From Phycisphaerae bacterium (lineage in GTDB: Bacteria; Planctomycetota; Phycisphaerae; Sedimentisphaerales; Anaerobacaceae): 49,513 nt of DNA. The stretch is from contig JAPLMX010000255.1 in assembly GCA_026386805.1 (NCBI GenBank), forward strand, positions 1 through 49,513, read 5' to 3'. This document shows, in pieces, positions 1,072-20,454 of this stretch (its first letter is position 1; each line of letters starts with the position of its first letter). The position numbers and the translations under genes are program-made. Below the pieces are notes generated by a model. That model searched no databases. It was not told the origin of the DNA and saw only the letters and a program-made list of their open reading frames with translations.

Positions 1072-1109
1072 GTTTCAATCCACACCCGCCTGGTGCGGGT
1101 GATGGCGAC
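1072..1109 (-). repeat. Solo CRISPR-repeat-like hairpin, copy 1 (rplP-rpmC gap)
   Basis: On the plus strand the element begins GTTTCAATCC, continues ACACCCGC, loop CTGGT, GCGGGTG, and ends GGCGAC. The stem is 7 bp (CACCCGC/GCGGGTG). The boundaries and the terminal ATTGAAAC on the transcribed strand match the general form of type I-C CRISPR repeats (family knowledge). It stands alone, with no second repeat or spacer beside it. The rpmC start lies 15 bases downstream in transcription. Related copies are at 18583, 19209 and 20423. Confidence 0.8.
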
Positions 1110-1118
1110 TTGTGACTC

Positions 1119-1538
1119 TCAAAGCCCGCGCCCGCGTTTGACGAACCGCATCCGAACCGGCATCTTGTGAGCCACTCGCGACAGGGCCTGCTTGGCCACT
1201 TCCTCGGTCACGCCGCCGATCTCGAAGCACACCATGCCGGGCCGCACGCGCGCGACCCAGAACTCCGGCTCGCCCTTGCCCTTGCCCATACGGGTCTCCA
1301 GCGGCTTGGCGCTGACGGGCTTGTGCGGGAAGATCCGGATATAGACCTTGCCTTCCCGGTGCAGGTAGTGAGTCGCCGCCACGCGGCCGGCCTCGATGTT
1401 CTTGGCCGTGACCCAACTCATCTCGAGCGACTGCAACCCATAGTCGCCGAAGGCGACATAGTTCGTGCGCTGCGCGTTGCCCTTCATTTTGCCGCGCTGG
1501 CTCTTACGATATTTGACTCTCTTTGGCATCATCGCCAT
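1119..1538 (-). CDS. rplP: 50S ribosomal protein L16
   Basis: Large-subunit protein that contacts the A- and P-site tRNA elbow region and organises the central protuberance; 139 residues, the usual length. Recognised from MMPKRVKYRKSQRGKMKG at the N-terminus, FGDYGLQSLEMSWVTAKNIE, and RMGKGKGEPEFWVARVRPG. The start at 1538 follows AGAGG with a 6-base spacing. It lies 43 bp after rpsC in transcription order. Confidence 0.97.
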   Translation of the reverse strand: MAMMPKRVKYRKSQRGKMKGNAQRTNYVAFGDYGLQSLEMSWVTAKNIEAGRVAATHYLHREGKVYIRIFPHKPVSAKPLETRMGKGKGEPEFWVARVRPGMVCFEIGGVTEEVAKQALSRVAHKMPVRMRFVKRGRGL

Positions 1539-1581
1539 AGCATACCTCTTTCAATGCTGCTTCCGGTGCGCGTCCTCAGGG

Positions 1582-2406
1582 CTACCCTTGGCCGTTACCC
1601 GCCGGCGCCGGTCCCGTTTCGGCCGGCCCGCCCCGTCCGCGGTCCCCGGGGCCCGAGCGGCCGCGCGGCTCCCCGCGCCGCGGCCCGCCCCCCGGCCCAC
1701 CGGGCCCGCCTGGACCCATCCGCCTCGGCGGCCGACGCTGCTGCCTGTGCTCGCTCGGCTCAAGCACTTCGCCGAATTTGCCACGGTAGATCCACACCTT
1801 GATCCCGATCGCCCCGTAGGTCGTCCGGGCGGTGGCCGTCCCGTAGTCAATGTCGGCATCCAGCGTGTGCAGCGGAACGCTCCCCATTTTCTGCGTCTCG
1901 CTCCGGGCTATTTCCGAGCCGGCCAGCCGTCCGCCGCAGGTAATCTTGACCCCCTTGGCGCCGGCGTTCATCGCCGACTCGCAGCATTGCTTCATGGTGC
2001 GCCGGAAAGAGGCCCGTTTGGCCAACTGCTCCGCAATCAACTCGCCCACGAGCGTCGCATTCAGGTCCGGCTCCTTGATTTCGATGACATTCACCGTCAC
2101 CTTGCGGCCGGTCAACCCTTCCAACTCCTCACGAAGCTTGTCGACCTCTCCCCCGCGCGGGCCGATCACCACGCCGGGCCGGCCGCTGTGCAGCGTCACG
2201 TTCACTTCATTGCGCGTCCGGATGATCTCAACCTTGGCGACCGCCCCTTTGGGCATCTCCCGGTTGAACCGGTTATCCACGTACTTGCGGATCCGCTGGT
2301 CCTCGACGAGGAAGTCGCCGTAGTTGCCTTTCGGGGCAAACCACGTGCTCTGCCAGCCCAGCGTGATACCCGTTCTAAATCCGATTGGAGACGTTTTATG
2401 ACCCAT
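1582..2406 (-). CDS. rpsC: 30S ribosomal protein S3 with Gly/Pro/Arg-rich tail
   Basis: Small-subunit head protein lining the mRNA entry channel. The N-terminal domain starts MGHKTSPIGFRTGITLGW, followed by a type II KH domain (GVVIGPRGGEVDKLREEL around 79-96) and the C-terminal S3 domain (GVKITCGGRLAGSEIARSE; DADIDYGTATARTTYGAIG). After the normal end, near residue 217, a ~55-residue low-complexity tail rich in G, P and R runs to 274 residues, against 210-240 in most bacteria. The GC-rich DNA at 1585-1745 encodes this tail. It is the sixth gene of the run after rpsJ with S10-operon spacing. Confidence 0.97.
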   Translation of the reverse strand: MGHKTSPIGFRTGITLGWQSTWFAPKGNYGDFLVEDQRIRKYVDNRFNREMPKGAVAKVEIIRTRNEVNVTLHSGRPGVVIGPRGGEVDKLREELEGLTGRKVTVNVIEIKEPDLNATLVGELIAEQLAKRASFRRTMKQCCESAMNAGAKGVKITCGGRLAGSEIARSETQKMGSVPLHTLDADIDYGTATARTTYGAIGIKVWIYRGKFGEVLEPSEHRQQRRPPRRMGPGGPGGPGGGPRRGEPRGRSGPGDRGRGGPAETGPAPAGNGQG

Positions 2407-2444
2407 AGTCCCGTATCCCGATTCTCGTTTCTACTGTGCCCTTC

Positions 2445-3008
2445 TCACTCCTGGCTGACCGTCACATGAATGTGGCACGCCTTTTTGCGAATTGGATGGG
2501 CTCGGCCCCGGTCCTTCGCGATCCACCGCTTGGTGCCGATGCGTATGCCCGCCTCGTCGGCCCGAGCCTCTTTGATATAAAGCACGCCCACATCGGCCTG
2601 ATGTTCATCCGCATCCGCCATCGCGGCCTTGAGCACCTGGCTGACCATTGGCGCGGCGCGCTTTCGCGTGAACTTGAGCAGGTCGATCGCGTCCTGCACC
2701 CGCCGGCCCCGAATCAGCGTCATGACCAGCCGAACCTTCCGCGCCGACATCGGTGCGTACATATAGGACGAATGCCAGTCGCTGATCTCGCGGACCTCGA
2801 CCGACAAGGTACCCGCCAACTTCTGCACGTCCTCCGTCTTCGGCAACGGCCTCATCAGACCTCTCTGCCAATTCCTCACGGCGGAGATAGCGTCCTGCAG
2901 ATCAAGACCACCCCGCACGATGCCCCTGGCGAGATCCTCGATCGTCACCCGCTGCCGCTGTGCCACTTCTTTCAGTTTCGTTACGCTTAACATATCCTCA
3001 TGCCCCAT
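2445..3008 (-). CDS. rplV: 50S ribosomal protein L22 with N-terminal HTH-like extension
   Basis: The C-terminal ~110 residues are L22, an exit-tunnel protein: YMYAPMSARKVRLVMTLIRG, AAMADADEH, and the beta-hairpin RADEAGIRIGTKRWIAKDRG followed by RAHPIRKK. The N-terminal ~75 residues are not part of normal L22. Their spacing resembles an XRE-type helix-turn-helix: TIEDLARGIVRGG, then NWQRGLMRPLPKTEDVQKLA, then GTLSVEVREISDW, echoing the W-x-R-G-x3-P...LA-x2-L-x-V pattern (inference). An internal ATG exists at 2993. Total 187 residues against ~110 typical. Confidence 0.94.
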   Translation of the reverse strand: MGHEDMLSVTKLKEVAQRQRVTIEDLARGIVRGGLDLQDAISAVRNWQRGLMRPLPKTEDVQKLAGTLSVEVREISDWHSSYMYAPMSARKVRLVMTLIRGRRVQDAIDLLKFTRKRAAPMVSQVLKAAMADADEHQADVGVLYIKEARADEAGIRIGTKRWIAKDRGRAHPIRKKACHIHVTVSQE

Positions 3009-19240: not shown

Positions 19241-19253
19241 AGGGCACGCCGCG

Positions 19254-19931
19254 TTAGACGCTCACCTCGACGGCCGGACTCATCGTCGCCGACAGGCAGG
19301 CTTTACGGATGTAGATGCCCTTCGCGGAAGCGGGCTTGACCCGTTTGATGTGGTTGACAAACGCCTCGATGTTCTCCACGAGTTTCTTCTTGTCGAAGCT
19401 TTGCTTGCCGACAGCGGCATGGATGTTACCACCGGCGTCATTGCGGAACTCGATCTTGCCAGCCGTGAACTCCGCCACGGCCGTGGCCACGTCATCCGTC
19501 ACGGTCCCGTTCTTGGGCGAAGGCATCTTGCCCTGGGGACCCAGGACCCGGCCCAGCTTGCCGACCTTGCCCATGACCTTCGGCGAGGCGATGGCCACGT
19601 CGAAGTCCGCCCAGCCGTCGATGACCTTCTTGACCAGCTCATCGACGCCGGCTTCGATCGCCCCGGCCTTCTTCGCCGCCTCCACCTGGGAGTCGTCGCA
19701 GAACGCGATGACCTTCTTCTGCTTGCCCACCCCATGCGGCAGGGACAGGGAGCCGCGCACCAGTTGGTCCGTCTGTTTGGGATCGATCCCCAGCAGCAGC
19801 ACGCACTCGACCGTCTGGTCGAATTTGACGCCCTTGAACGACTTGACCTTGTCCACGCCCTGATCCAGGCTCAGCGGTCCTTCGCTGACCTGCTCGGCCT
19901 CTTTCGTGTATCGTTTGCTCCTCGGCTTCAT
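19254..19931 (-). CDS. rplA: 50S ribosomal protein L1
   Basis: L1-stalk protein that guides deacylated tRNA from the E site; in E. coli it represses the L11-L1 operon (family knowledge). The 225 residues include KFDQTVECVLLLGIDPKQTD, VRGSLSLPHGVGKQKKVIAF, the GKVGKLGRVLGPQGKMPSPK signature and TADDVATAV-like GTVTDDVATAVAEFTAGKIE. Starts MKPRSKRYTKEAEQ. It follows rplK by 47 bp. Confidence 0.97.
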   Translation of the reverse strand: MKPRSKRYTKEAEQVSEGPLSLDQGVDKVKSFKGVKFDQTVECVLLLGIDPKQTDQLVRGSLSLPHGVGKQKKVIAFCDDSQVEAAKKAGAIEAGVDELVKKVIDGWADFDVAIASPKVMGKVGKLGRVLGPQGKMPSPKNGTVTDDVATAVAEFTAGKIEFRNDAGGNIHAAVGKQSFDKKKLVENIEAFVNHIKRVKPASAKGIYIRKACLSATMSPAVEVSV

Positions 19932-19978
19932 ACTCGCAATCTCACTTTATTCCCACAAGCGATCAAGAATTCAAATCC

Positions 19979-20404
19979 TCAATCGACGACTTCGATTCCC
20001 ATGCTTCGCGCGGTTCCACGAATGATTTTCTCGGCCTGCGATAGATCGTACGCGTTCAGGTCCTTGGCCTTCGTCTCGGCGATCTTGCGGACCTGTGCGG
20101 CGGTCACTTCGCCGACCTTCTCCTTGTTCGGCGTACCGCTGCCCTTGGCCACGTCCGCCGCCTGCTTGAGCAGCACGGCCGCCGGGGGACTCTTGACCTC
20201 GAATGTGAAACTCCGGTCGGTGTACACCGTGATCACCACCGGCACGATCATTCCATTCATCTCCCGGGTTCGTTCGTTGAACTGAGACACGAACTGCCCA
20301 ATATTCACGCCGTGTTGGCCAAGAGCCGGTCCGATCGGCGGAGCCGGGGTGGCCTTTCCGCCGGGGGCCTGCAACTTGATCTGTTTCGCGATTTCTTTTG
20401 CCAT
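19979..20404 (-). CDS. rplK: 50S ribosomal protein L11
   Basis: GTPase-associated-centre protein; 141 residues, the normal length. The N-terminus AKQIKLQAPGGKATPAPPIG followed by PALGQHGVNIGQFVSQFNE and the rRNA-binding C-terminal domain (LLKQAADVAKGSGTPNKEKV; KDLNAYDLSQAEKIIRGTAR) are diagnostic. The start is at 20404. A CRISPR-repeat-like hairpin lies immediately upstream, between nusG and this gene. Confidence 0.97.
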   Translation of the reverse strand: MAKEIAKQIKLQAPGGKATPAPPIGPALGQHGVNIGQFVSQFNERTREMNGMIVPVVITVYTDRSFTFEVKSPPAAVLLKQAADVAKGSGTPNKEKVGEVTAAQVRKIAETKAKDLNAYDLSQAEKIIRGTARSMGIEVVD

Positions 20405-20422
20405 CTTCTACCCTTGTCGTTT

Positions 20423-20454
20423 TTTTCAATCCACACCCGCGTCGAGCGGGTGAC
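20423..20454 (-). repeat. Solo CRISPR-repeat-like hairpin, copy 4 (nusG-rplK gap)
   Basis: 32 bp on the plus strand: TTTTCAATCC, ACACCCGC, GTCGA, GCGGGTGAC. The stem CACCCGC/GCGGGTG is perfect while the loop differs from the other copies, so the structure rather than the loop is conserved. It lies between the nusG stop (20484) and the rplK start (20404). Confidence 0.8.

Follow-up and report, generated by a model that had tools for sequence, protein, structure and literature searches.

A 49,513-nucleotide (nt) stretch of DNA from a Phycisphaerae bacterium (Anaerobacaceae; contig JAPLMX010000255.1 of assembly GCA_026386805.1), here called the window and numbered over its whole length, carries four 32-nt hairpin elements between the genes of its ribosomal-protein (r-protein) operons. 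Judged by sequence, these elements are solitary type I-C clustered regularly interspaced short palindromic repeats (CRISPR repeats) and not chance look-alikes. We consider it about an even bet that such repeats, standing just before start codons, have taken on a new role as RNA hairpins marking where the next cistron begins.

All four elements lie on the minus strand, the strand of the mRNA, ahead of rpmC, rplL, rplJ, and rplK. A preliminary description of this DNA had placed four hairpins on one strand in these gaps, and the sequence together with Pfam matches to the flanking genes (L16, L29, L12, L10, L1, L11, and NusG) confirmed it. The repeats assigned to type I-C by sequence are as follows.

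1072..1103, minus strand: solitary type I-C repeat in the rplP/rpmC gap; rpmC starts 14 nt past the end of the tail
18583..18614, minus strand: solitary type I-C repeat in the rplJ/rplL gap; rplL starts 107 nt on, and a separate structured RNA, possibly a leader, lies 3' of the repeat
19209..19240, minus strand: solitary type I-C repeat in the rplA/rplJ gap; rplJ starts 37 nt on; site also occupied in genomes G074 and G080
20423..20454, minus strand: solitary type I-C repeat in the nusG/rplK gap; rplK starts 18 nt on; site also occupied in genomes G075 and G080

The rplJ/rplL site is also occupied in G078 and G079. Read along the mRNA, each 32-nt element opens with 2 nt, continues with two 7-nt arms that enclose a 5-nt loop, and closes with an 11-nt tail. 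The stem precedes the tail, as had been proposed, in the orientation of a type I-C CRISPR RNA (crRNA). The window copies are single, and the flanks that were read hold no partial repeats. Folded in isolation, three of the four give exactly a 7-bp stem and a 5-nt loop, and the rplJ copy gives a longer, shifted 9-bp helix. Each copy folded better than most of its own shuffles (z of -2.1 to -2.3); the folding of longer gap sequences that included the flanks was unremarkable against shuffles (z of +0.3 to -1.4). The earlier view of a conserved stem and a variable loop stands for the loop, which is the more diverged part at shared sites (see below), and has to be qualified for the stem: the rplJ copy has CGTCCGC as its 5' arm and can form the 7-bp stem through wobble pairs, not through identity.

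The number and context of the copies exclude a chance look-alike. A strict pattern allowing up to three mismatches matched five places in the 5.55-Mb host genome, three of them in the window, versus none for a reversed control, and GTGTGGATTGAAAC with at most one mismatch occurred in seven places versus one for a control pattern. Two covariance models, R1 built from the seven first copies and R2 built from 27 genus copies, were run on whole genomes. One pattern match, on contig C98 with one tail mismatch, had no such hairpin in its sequence, was unlisted by R2, and was not used.

The copies show the traits of the type I-C repeat family, namely a length of about 32 nt, a hairpin, and a conserved tail ending in GUGGAUUGAAAC (alignments A1 and A2; per-column base counts). 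We take them for solitary I-C repeats rather than look-alikes because the profile of the solitary copies finds true I-C arrays and because the array of a sister species has the same stem. At E ≤ 1e-4, R2 had matches in 40 of 392 genomes of the phylum (the host included), many of them tandem. In G297 and G349, members of the same order and another family, these were tandem arrays of GTCGCCCGCTTCACGCGGGCGTGGATTGAAAC with 65- to 68-nt spacing, called I-C-type arrays from repeat and spacing. They scored 49.6 bits, which is higher than every solitary copy (best, 47.0). The sister species, G075, has csd2, cas4, type I-C cas1, and cas2 beside an array with the repeat GTCACCCGCCCCCCCGGGCGGGTGTGGATTGAAAC (five complete units plus a degenerate one). 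The stem of this array, CACCCGC/GCGGGTG, is also the one seen most often among the solitary copies (6 of 27). The relation to type I-C repeats and the solitary state that the preliminary description had suggested are thereby upheld. According to a review (PMC5965380), cutting of the type I-C array repeat by Cas5d yields handles of 11 nt (5') and 21 nt (3'); the solitary element divides alike, into a 21-nt 5' part with the hairpin and an 11-nt tail. The array repeat differs in having a second repeat and a spacer, whereas solitary copies have neither and a host gene follows directly.

R2 found nine copies in the host genome at E ≤ 1e-6, four of them in the window. The genes downstream of these copies are listed below, with coordinates for those in the window.

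872..1057, minus strand: rpmC (L29), downstream of a copy; Pfam PF00831
18071..18475, minus strand: rplL (L7/L12), downstream of a copy; Pfam PF00542
18629..19171, minus strand: rplJ (L10), downstream of a copy; Pfam PF00466
19982..20404, minus strand: rplK (L11), downstream of a copy; Pfam PF03946 and PF00298
Contig C122: copy before rpsN (S14)
Contig C191: copy before dnaJ (PF00226)
Contig C211: copy before fabD (PF00698)
Contig C247: copy before a dockerin gene (PF00404)
Contig C40: copy before an ADP-ribosylglycohydrolase gene (PF03747)

R-protein genes follow five of the nine strong copies, in agreement with the proposed bias to r-protein gaps. Pattern and profile searches found no tandem copies in this genome. 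Nine strong copies in one orientation do not fit an ordinary repetitive extragenic palindrome (REP), the alternative that had been raised with hundreds of unbiased copies in mind. By the L1 protein, the closest relatives found for the host are Planctomycetota and Phycisphaerae metagenome-assembled genomes, the top match being 94% identical.

The genus was sampled with nine genomes and the family with 89. Matches to R2 occurred in nine of nine genus genomes at E ≤ 0.5 and in eight at E ≤ 1e-6; the weak member, G077, had its best match (E = 7e-4) before rplR. The strong set (R2, E ≤ 1e-6), from which the five array copies of G075:C707 were excluded, comprised 29 nonarray copies, at most nine per genome. 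Twenty-eight of these precede a gene, all in sense (P = 4e-9 versus a coin toss, relatives not being independent), and the exception, G075:C717, has no credible open reading frame (ORF) after it on either strand. The distance from tail end to start codon was 53 nt or less in 26 of the 28 gene-associated copies and 107 and 115 nt in two rplL copies. The strong copies occupy 18 distinct sites, nine of which are r-protein genes or nusG (rplK, rpmC, nusG, rplW, rplR, rplJ, rpsN, rpsH, and rplL; P of about 6e-13, assuming ~60 such genes in 4500). One example of each of these genes was called by Pfam or NCBIfam (for rpsH, from a 68-residue piece) and the others by similarity. The remaining sites are gspE, dnaJ, fabD, surE, archease, mcsA, two genes seen a single time each (those for the dockerin protein and the ADP-ribosylglycohydrolase), and G075:C717. 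The mcsA call comes from a 70-residue piece that fits the McsA model along its length but stays below the whole-protein cutoff.

With weaker copies included, twelve sites are common to two to five species, one of them read as degP from a piece that gave no Pfam match when scanned. When 35 genes in r-protein operons were scanned, 19 gaps scored 21.8 to 42.6 and every other gap scored 12 or less; the scan covered 110 nt upstream (which misses the rplL copies) on operon contigs, and its matrix came from A2, that is, from many of the same copies. Across the family, R1 at E ≤ 0.01 had matches in 14 of 89 genomes, namely, eight of the nine within the genus and six of the 80 outside it. The outside matches include those in G067, which reads like an array end, and in G046, on a phage-like-looking contig. 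Copies before rplR persist in five species, and searches for Cas5d, Csd1, and Csd2 found none of these proteins in any of the five. The solitary set is a trait of the genus and does not simply follow I-C systems.

In the two gaps compared with and without a copy, the copies are insertions. With its copy, the rpmC gap of the window genome measures 61 nt, versus 12 to 15 nt in all eight relatives read, which lack one, and the rplR gap measures 55 to 77 nt with a copy (five species) versus 17 to 18 nt without (three species). In the rpmC, rpsN, rplK, and rplJ gaps, the copy is flanked on one side by the stop codon of the upstream gene and on the other by a conserved stretch rich in purines that precedes the start, and gspE, rplW, and nusG are among the genes whose start codon is nearly or fully touched by the tail. 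The window has one further site that may have held a copy.

21027..21060, minus strand: possible decayed copy directly 5' of nusG; 34 nt versus 35 nt at the intact G078 site, in a weak, by-eye comparison

The profile scan gave this site a score of -4 and did not pick it up.

Related hairpins were seen beyond this set. In G202, which belongs to another family, the gene for a penicillin-binding protein has its GTG start 2 nt past the end of a single I-C repeat (L191, contig C714, 664-695), and repeats at start codons may accordingly not be limited to this genus. Hairpins with deviant tails (GTGAAA-like or GTGAAG) occur in three genus members, 25 to 51 nt ahead of secreted-protein-like genes (L139, 914-940; L148, 2031-2061; L168, 1501-1530; L140, 1501-1532), and may be a second subtype.

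The hairpin of the solitary copies appears to be kept by selection at the RNA level. Alignment A2 holds 27 of 33 copies; those of other lengths (G000 rpsN, G078 nusG, G075 rpsN, and G074:C565) and those with poor tails (G073:C250 and G074:C210) were excluded. Standard pairs fill 97.9% of its 189 cells, nine cells are compensatory with both sides changed, and its covariation score was reached by none of 500 shuffles. The stem thus covaries in relatives, a point that the preliminary description had wanted checked. The stem has 21 G.U cells and no A.C cell, whereas equal numbers of the two would be expected of a palindrome acting as DNA (P = 5e-7). This points to the sense RNA, and we rejected a DNA operator palindrome, since the wobble changes all pair in that RNA. 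At the 12 shared sites (33 copies), divergence was 0.18 in the arms, 0.32 in the tail, and 0.66 in the loop, and 222 of 231 cells were paired. Between species, 47 of the 66 differing pair comparisons at these sites keep pairing, 12 of them by changes on both sides. The closing pair of the rplL copy is C-G, U.G, and U-A in three species, U.G being the pair of the window and C-G and U-A those of G078/G079.

The preliminary description had suggested that r-protein messages could be cut by the CRISPR nuclease if the genome held a matching array and Cas5d. For this genome the idea failed: no I-C array, Cas5d (TIGR01876), Csd1, or Csd2 was found in this genome, which is 93.5% complete. Its CRISPR locus is of type I-E, with matches to the Cas1e, Cas6e, and Cas5e models above cutoffs and an unrelated repeat, CGGTTCACCCCCACGTGCGTGGGGAAAAT. 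The locus (L015, contig C92, 7127-12099) comprises the array, Cas1e, Cas6e, Cas5e, and a Cas7e-like protein below the model cutoff; the Cas5e has 475 amino acids and an HNH-like C-terminal part (HNH just under cutoff). A strong Pfam Cas5 match on C92 was rejected as Cas5d, being this Cas5e with its HNH-like tail, and a Pfam Cas5 match on C200 was weak (E = 0.08, below cutoff).

Such components do occur in relatives, the array in G075 and Cas5d in G078. These are the two of nine genus members in which I-C genes were found. Cas5d was detected in one of the nine genomes and in 5 of 89 family genomes, Csd1 in one of nine, and Csd2 in two of nine, where calls of Cas5d absence are limited by contig breaks that can hide single cas genes, as G075 shows. 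In G078, cas3, cas5d, csd1, csd2, cas4, and type I-C cas1 all lie on one contig, and the Cas5d (L157, 5126-5935) matches solved I-C Cas5 structures (E = 1.2e-35); the 20 kb read there contained no array of this I-C type.

We propose that an ancestral I-C array of the genus may have supplied the repeats, which would have been copied into gaps, in part at an early stage of the genus. Once there, the hairpin could cap and protect the 3' end of the upstream message, could shield the unpaired tail and the ribosome-binding site from the upstream cistron while leaving both open, and would in this manner set the output of single genes inside packed operons. Such a boundary role would explain why the stem is constrained while the loop is free, why the copies lie in one orientation at this position, why they favor densely packed operons of high output, and why they persist where Cas5d is missing. 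Part of an immune system has thus likely found a new use in shaping the expression of core genes.

Several observations weigh against a hairpin that acts as a cistron boundary. The tail has diverged less than the loop, a pattern that a simple insulator hairpin leaves unexplained, and this tail conservation speaks more than anything else for a reader of Cas5d-like specificity, acting at least intermittently. Among 39 chosen copies (the G073 mcsA copy and tail-less hairpins excluded), the presence or absence of I-C genes made no significant difference to tail quality (P = 0.50), and neither did membership in one or the other of the two clades (P = 0.14). The pairs in A2 with change on both sides number three, a count reached by 33 of 500 shuffles, and the copies were found with a structure-aware model that favors paired stems, in relatives that are not independent. 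At the shared sites, 19 of the 66 differing pair comparisons have an unpaired partner, and within-site arm shuffles matched in 457 of 2000 cases, in a run that had no power and included the G077 mcsA copy out of register. Most r-protein gaps in any one species are without a copy and sites come and go, and therefore no single copy looks essential.

The tail brings Cas5d into the argument. Where I-C genes are present, that is, in two of nine genomes, Cas5d is predicted to cut after nucleotide 21, and the mRNA would then begin with the 11-nt crRNA handle UGGAUUGAAAC. We advance only tentatively the idea that a crRNA-processing nuclease doubles as an r-protein mRNA processing factor; Cas5d would cut r-protein, nusG, and other core transcripts in I-C-bearing members, tying ribosome synthesis to immunity, and the hairpin would keep a second, Cas-free role in members lacking I-C genes. 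A related account, in which binding or cutting by the I-C nuclease is what keeps the copies and couples r-protein synthesis to a gained-and-lost I-C system, also strikes us as rather unlikely. It draws on the conservation of both halves of the 21 + 11 repeat, hairpin and tail, on G078, where an I-C operon with Cas5d accompanies four strong copies (before gspE, rplW, nusG, and rplL), and on G075, with its array plus solitary copies. However, a nuclease that keeps the copies is hard to square with I-C genes in so few members of the genus and with tails that are not significantly worse without them. Outside the genus, four genomes of the family encode Cas5d; three of these lack any match, and the fourth has just one.

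The copies might instead be functionless hitchhikers, array-derived repeats that spread and are tolerated, surviving only where no gene is disrupted, between a stop codon and a ribosome-binding site. The insertions in the two compared gaps, the patchy occupancy, and the decayed-looking site at 21027-21060 are consistent with this. Passengers of this kind would not be expected to lie in sense relative to the next gene in 28 of 28 cases, a count that includes nonindependent relatives, or to combine a loop far more diverged than arms and tail with G.U pairs and no A.C, and we judge them improbable, slightly more so than the Cas5d accounts. Convergence, in which a hairpin bound by an r-protein or translation factor resembles an I-C repeat by chance, had been left open by the preliminary description and could account for half of the 18 sites being r-protein genes or nusG. 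Yet the other half are nonribosomal, and no Rfam family matches the copies at gathering score. The copies resemble I-C repeats in overall length, in the GTC at the 5' end, in the sizes of stem and loop, and in the 11-nt tail; the profile gives arrays higher scores than the solitary copies from which it was built, and the array within the genus (G075) shares their stem. Convergence is thus very improbable. A hairpin reused to mark the downstream cistron start is the reading that we prefer.

A second structured RNA lies between rplJ and rplL (window 18470-18560, minus strand), with the core GGCUGUCCC..GGGUUAAACG..CGGCUACC. A simple pattern found this core in 35 of 80 loci, and alignment A3 (28 loci plus the window) has 17 predicted pairs, 7 of them with compensatory changes. 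The window copy had no Rfam match at E ≤ 1, and this RNA may be an unnamed rplL leader.

I-C-like repeats are also present in viral contigs (two exact patterns, found in 3 and 4 contigs, of which the surrounding sequence was read). Viral contig L226 (IMGVR_UViG_3300044798_000343) has five I-C-like repeats with the CACCCGC/GCGGGTG stem; three form a mini-array, and the other two are solitary, one standing 17 nt ahead of a DUF932 gene. On L225, whose contig name carries the same sample number as that of L226, a repeat lies 9 nt before the ATG of a 31-amino-acid frame. The G046 copy mentioned above (L158, contig C634, 6964-6995) stands alone, 26 nt ahead of a short ORF that is followed by an SMC/AAA-type ATPase gene; this I-C repeat is a candidate RNA anti-CRISPR.

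Mobile elements that carry solitary repeats have been described before, as have guide-like repeats at ectopic positions (PMC10651486, PMC8616872, PMC11656645, and PMC9458426). Our searches of the open-licence literature turned up no account of such solitary repeats as parts of r-protein operons or other core operons. The copies described here make CRISPR repeats a feature of core operons across a genus, mostly without detectable Cas proteins to read them. If the proposed reuse is true, a CRISPR part has turned into a housekeeping cis element, and the processing of host messages by crRNA nucleases becomes directly testable in vitro with one enzyme and a few RNAs.

Several known systems resemble these copies in part. 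REP- and miniature inverted-repeat transposable element (MITE)-like palindromes are short dispersed hairpins in intercistronic gaps, with many copies in both orientations; the solitary copies are alike in being short, dispersed, and intercistronic but differ in having nine or fewer strong copies per genome, in one orientation and near start codons. R-protein autoregulatory leaders are RNA structures in r-protein operons, whereas here one element stands ahead of nine different r-protein/nusG genes and at nine other sites; a search of the whole window against Rfam at gathering score returned three tRNAs only and no r-protein leader. Solitary repeat units and the RNA anti-CRISPRs (Racr, including RacrIC1), as presented in PMC10651486, lie on phages, prophages, and plasmids, often after a promoter, and yield small RNAs that inhibit the host system. 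They share with the window copies single repeats outside arrays, type I-C included, and a kept hairpin; unlike them, the window copies lie between cistrons in chromosomal r-protein operons, in a genus with no I-C gene found in seven of nine genomes. CreA and scaRNA ectopic repeats, in the account given by PMC9458426, produce crRNA-like RNAs that direct a Cas effector, whereas most genomes of this genus show no I-C genes; what they have in common with the solitary copies is a position outside arrays and, on the reading proposed here, a role other than defense.

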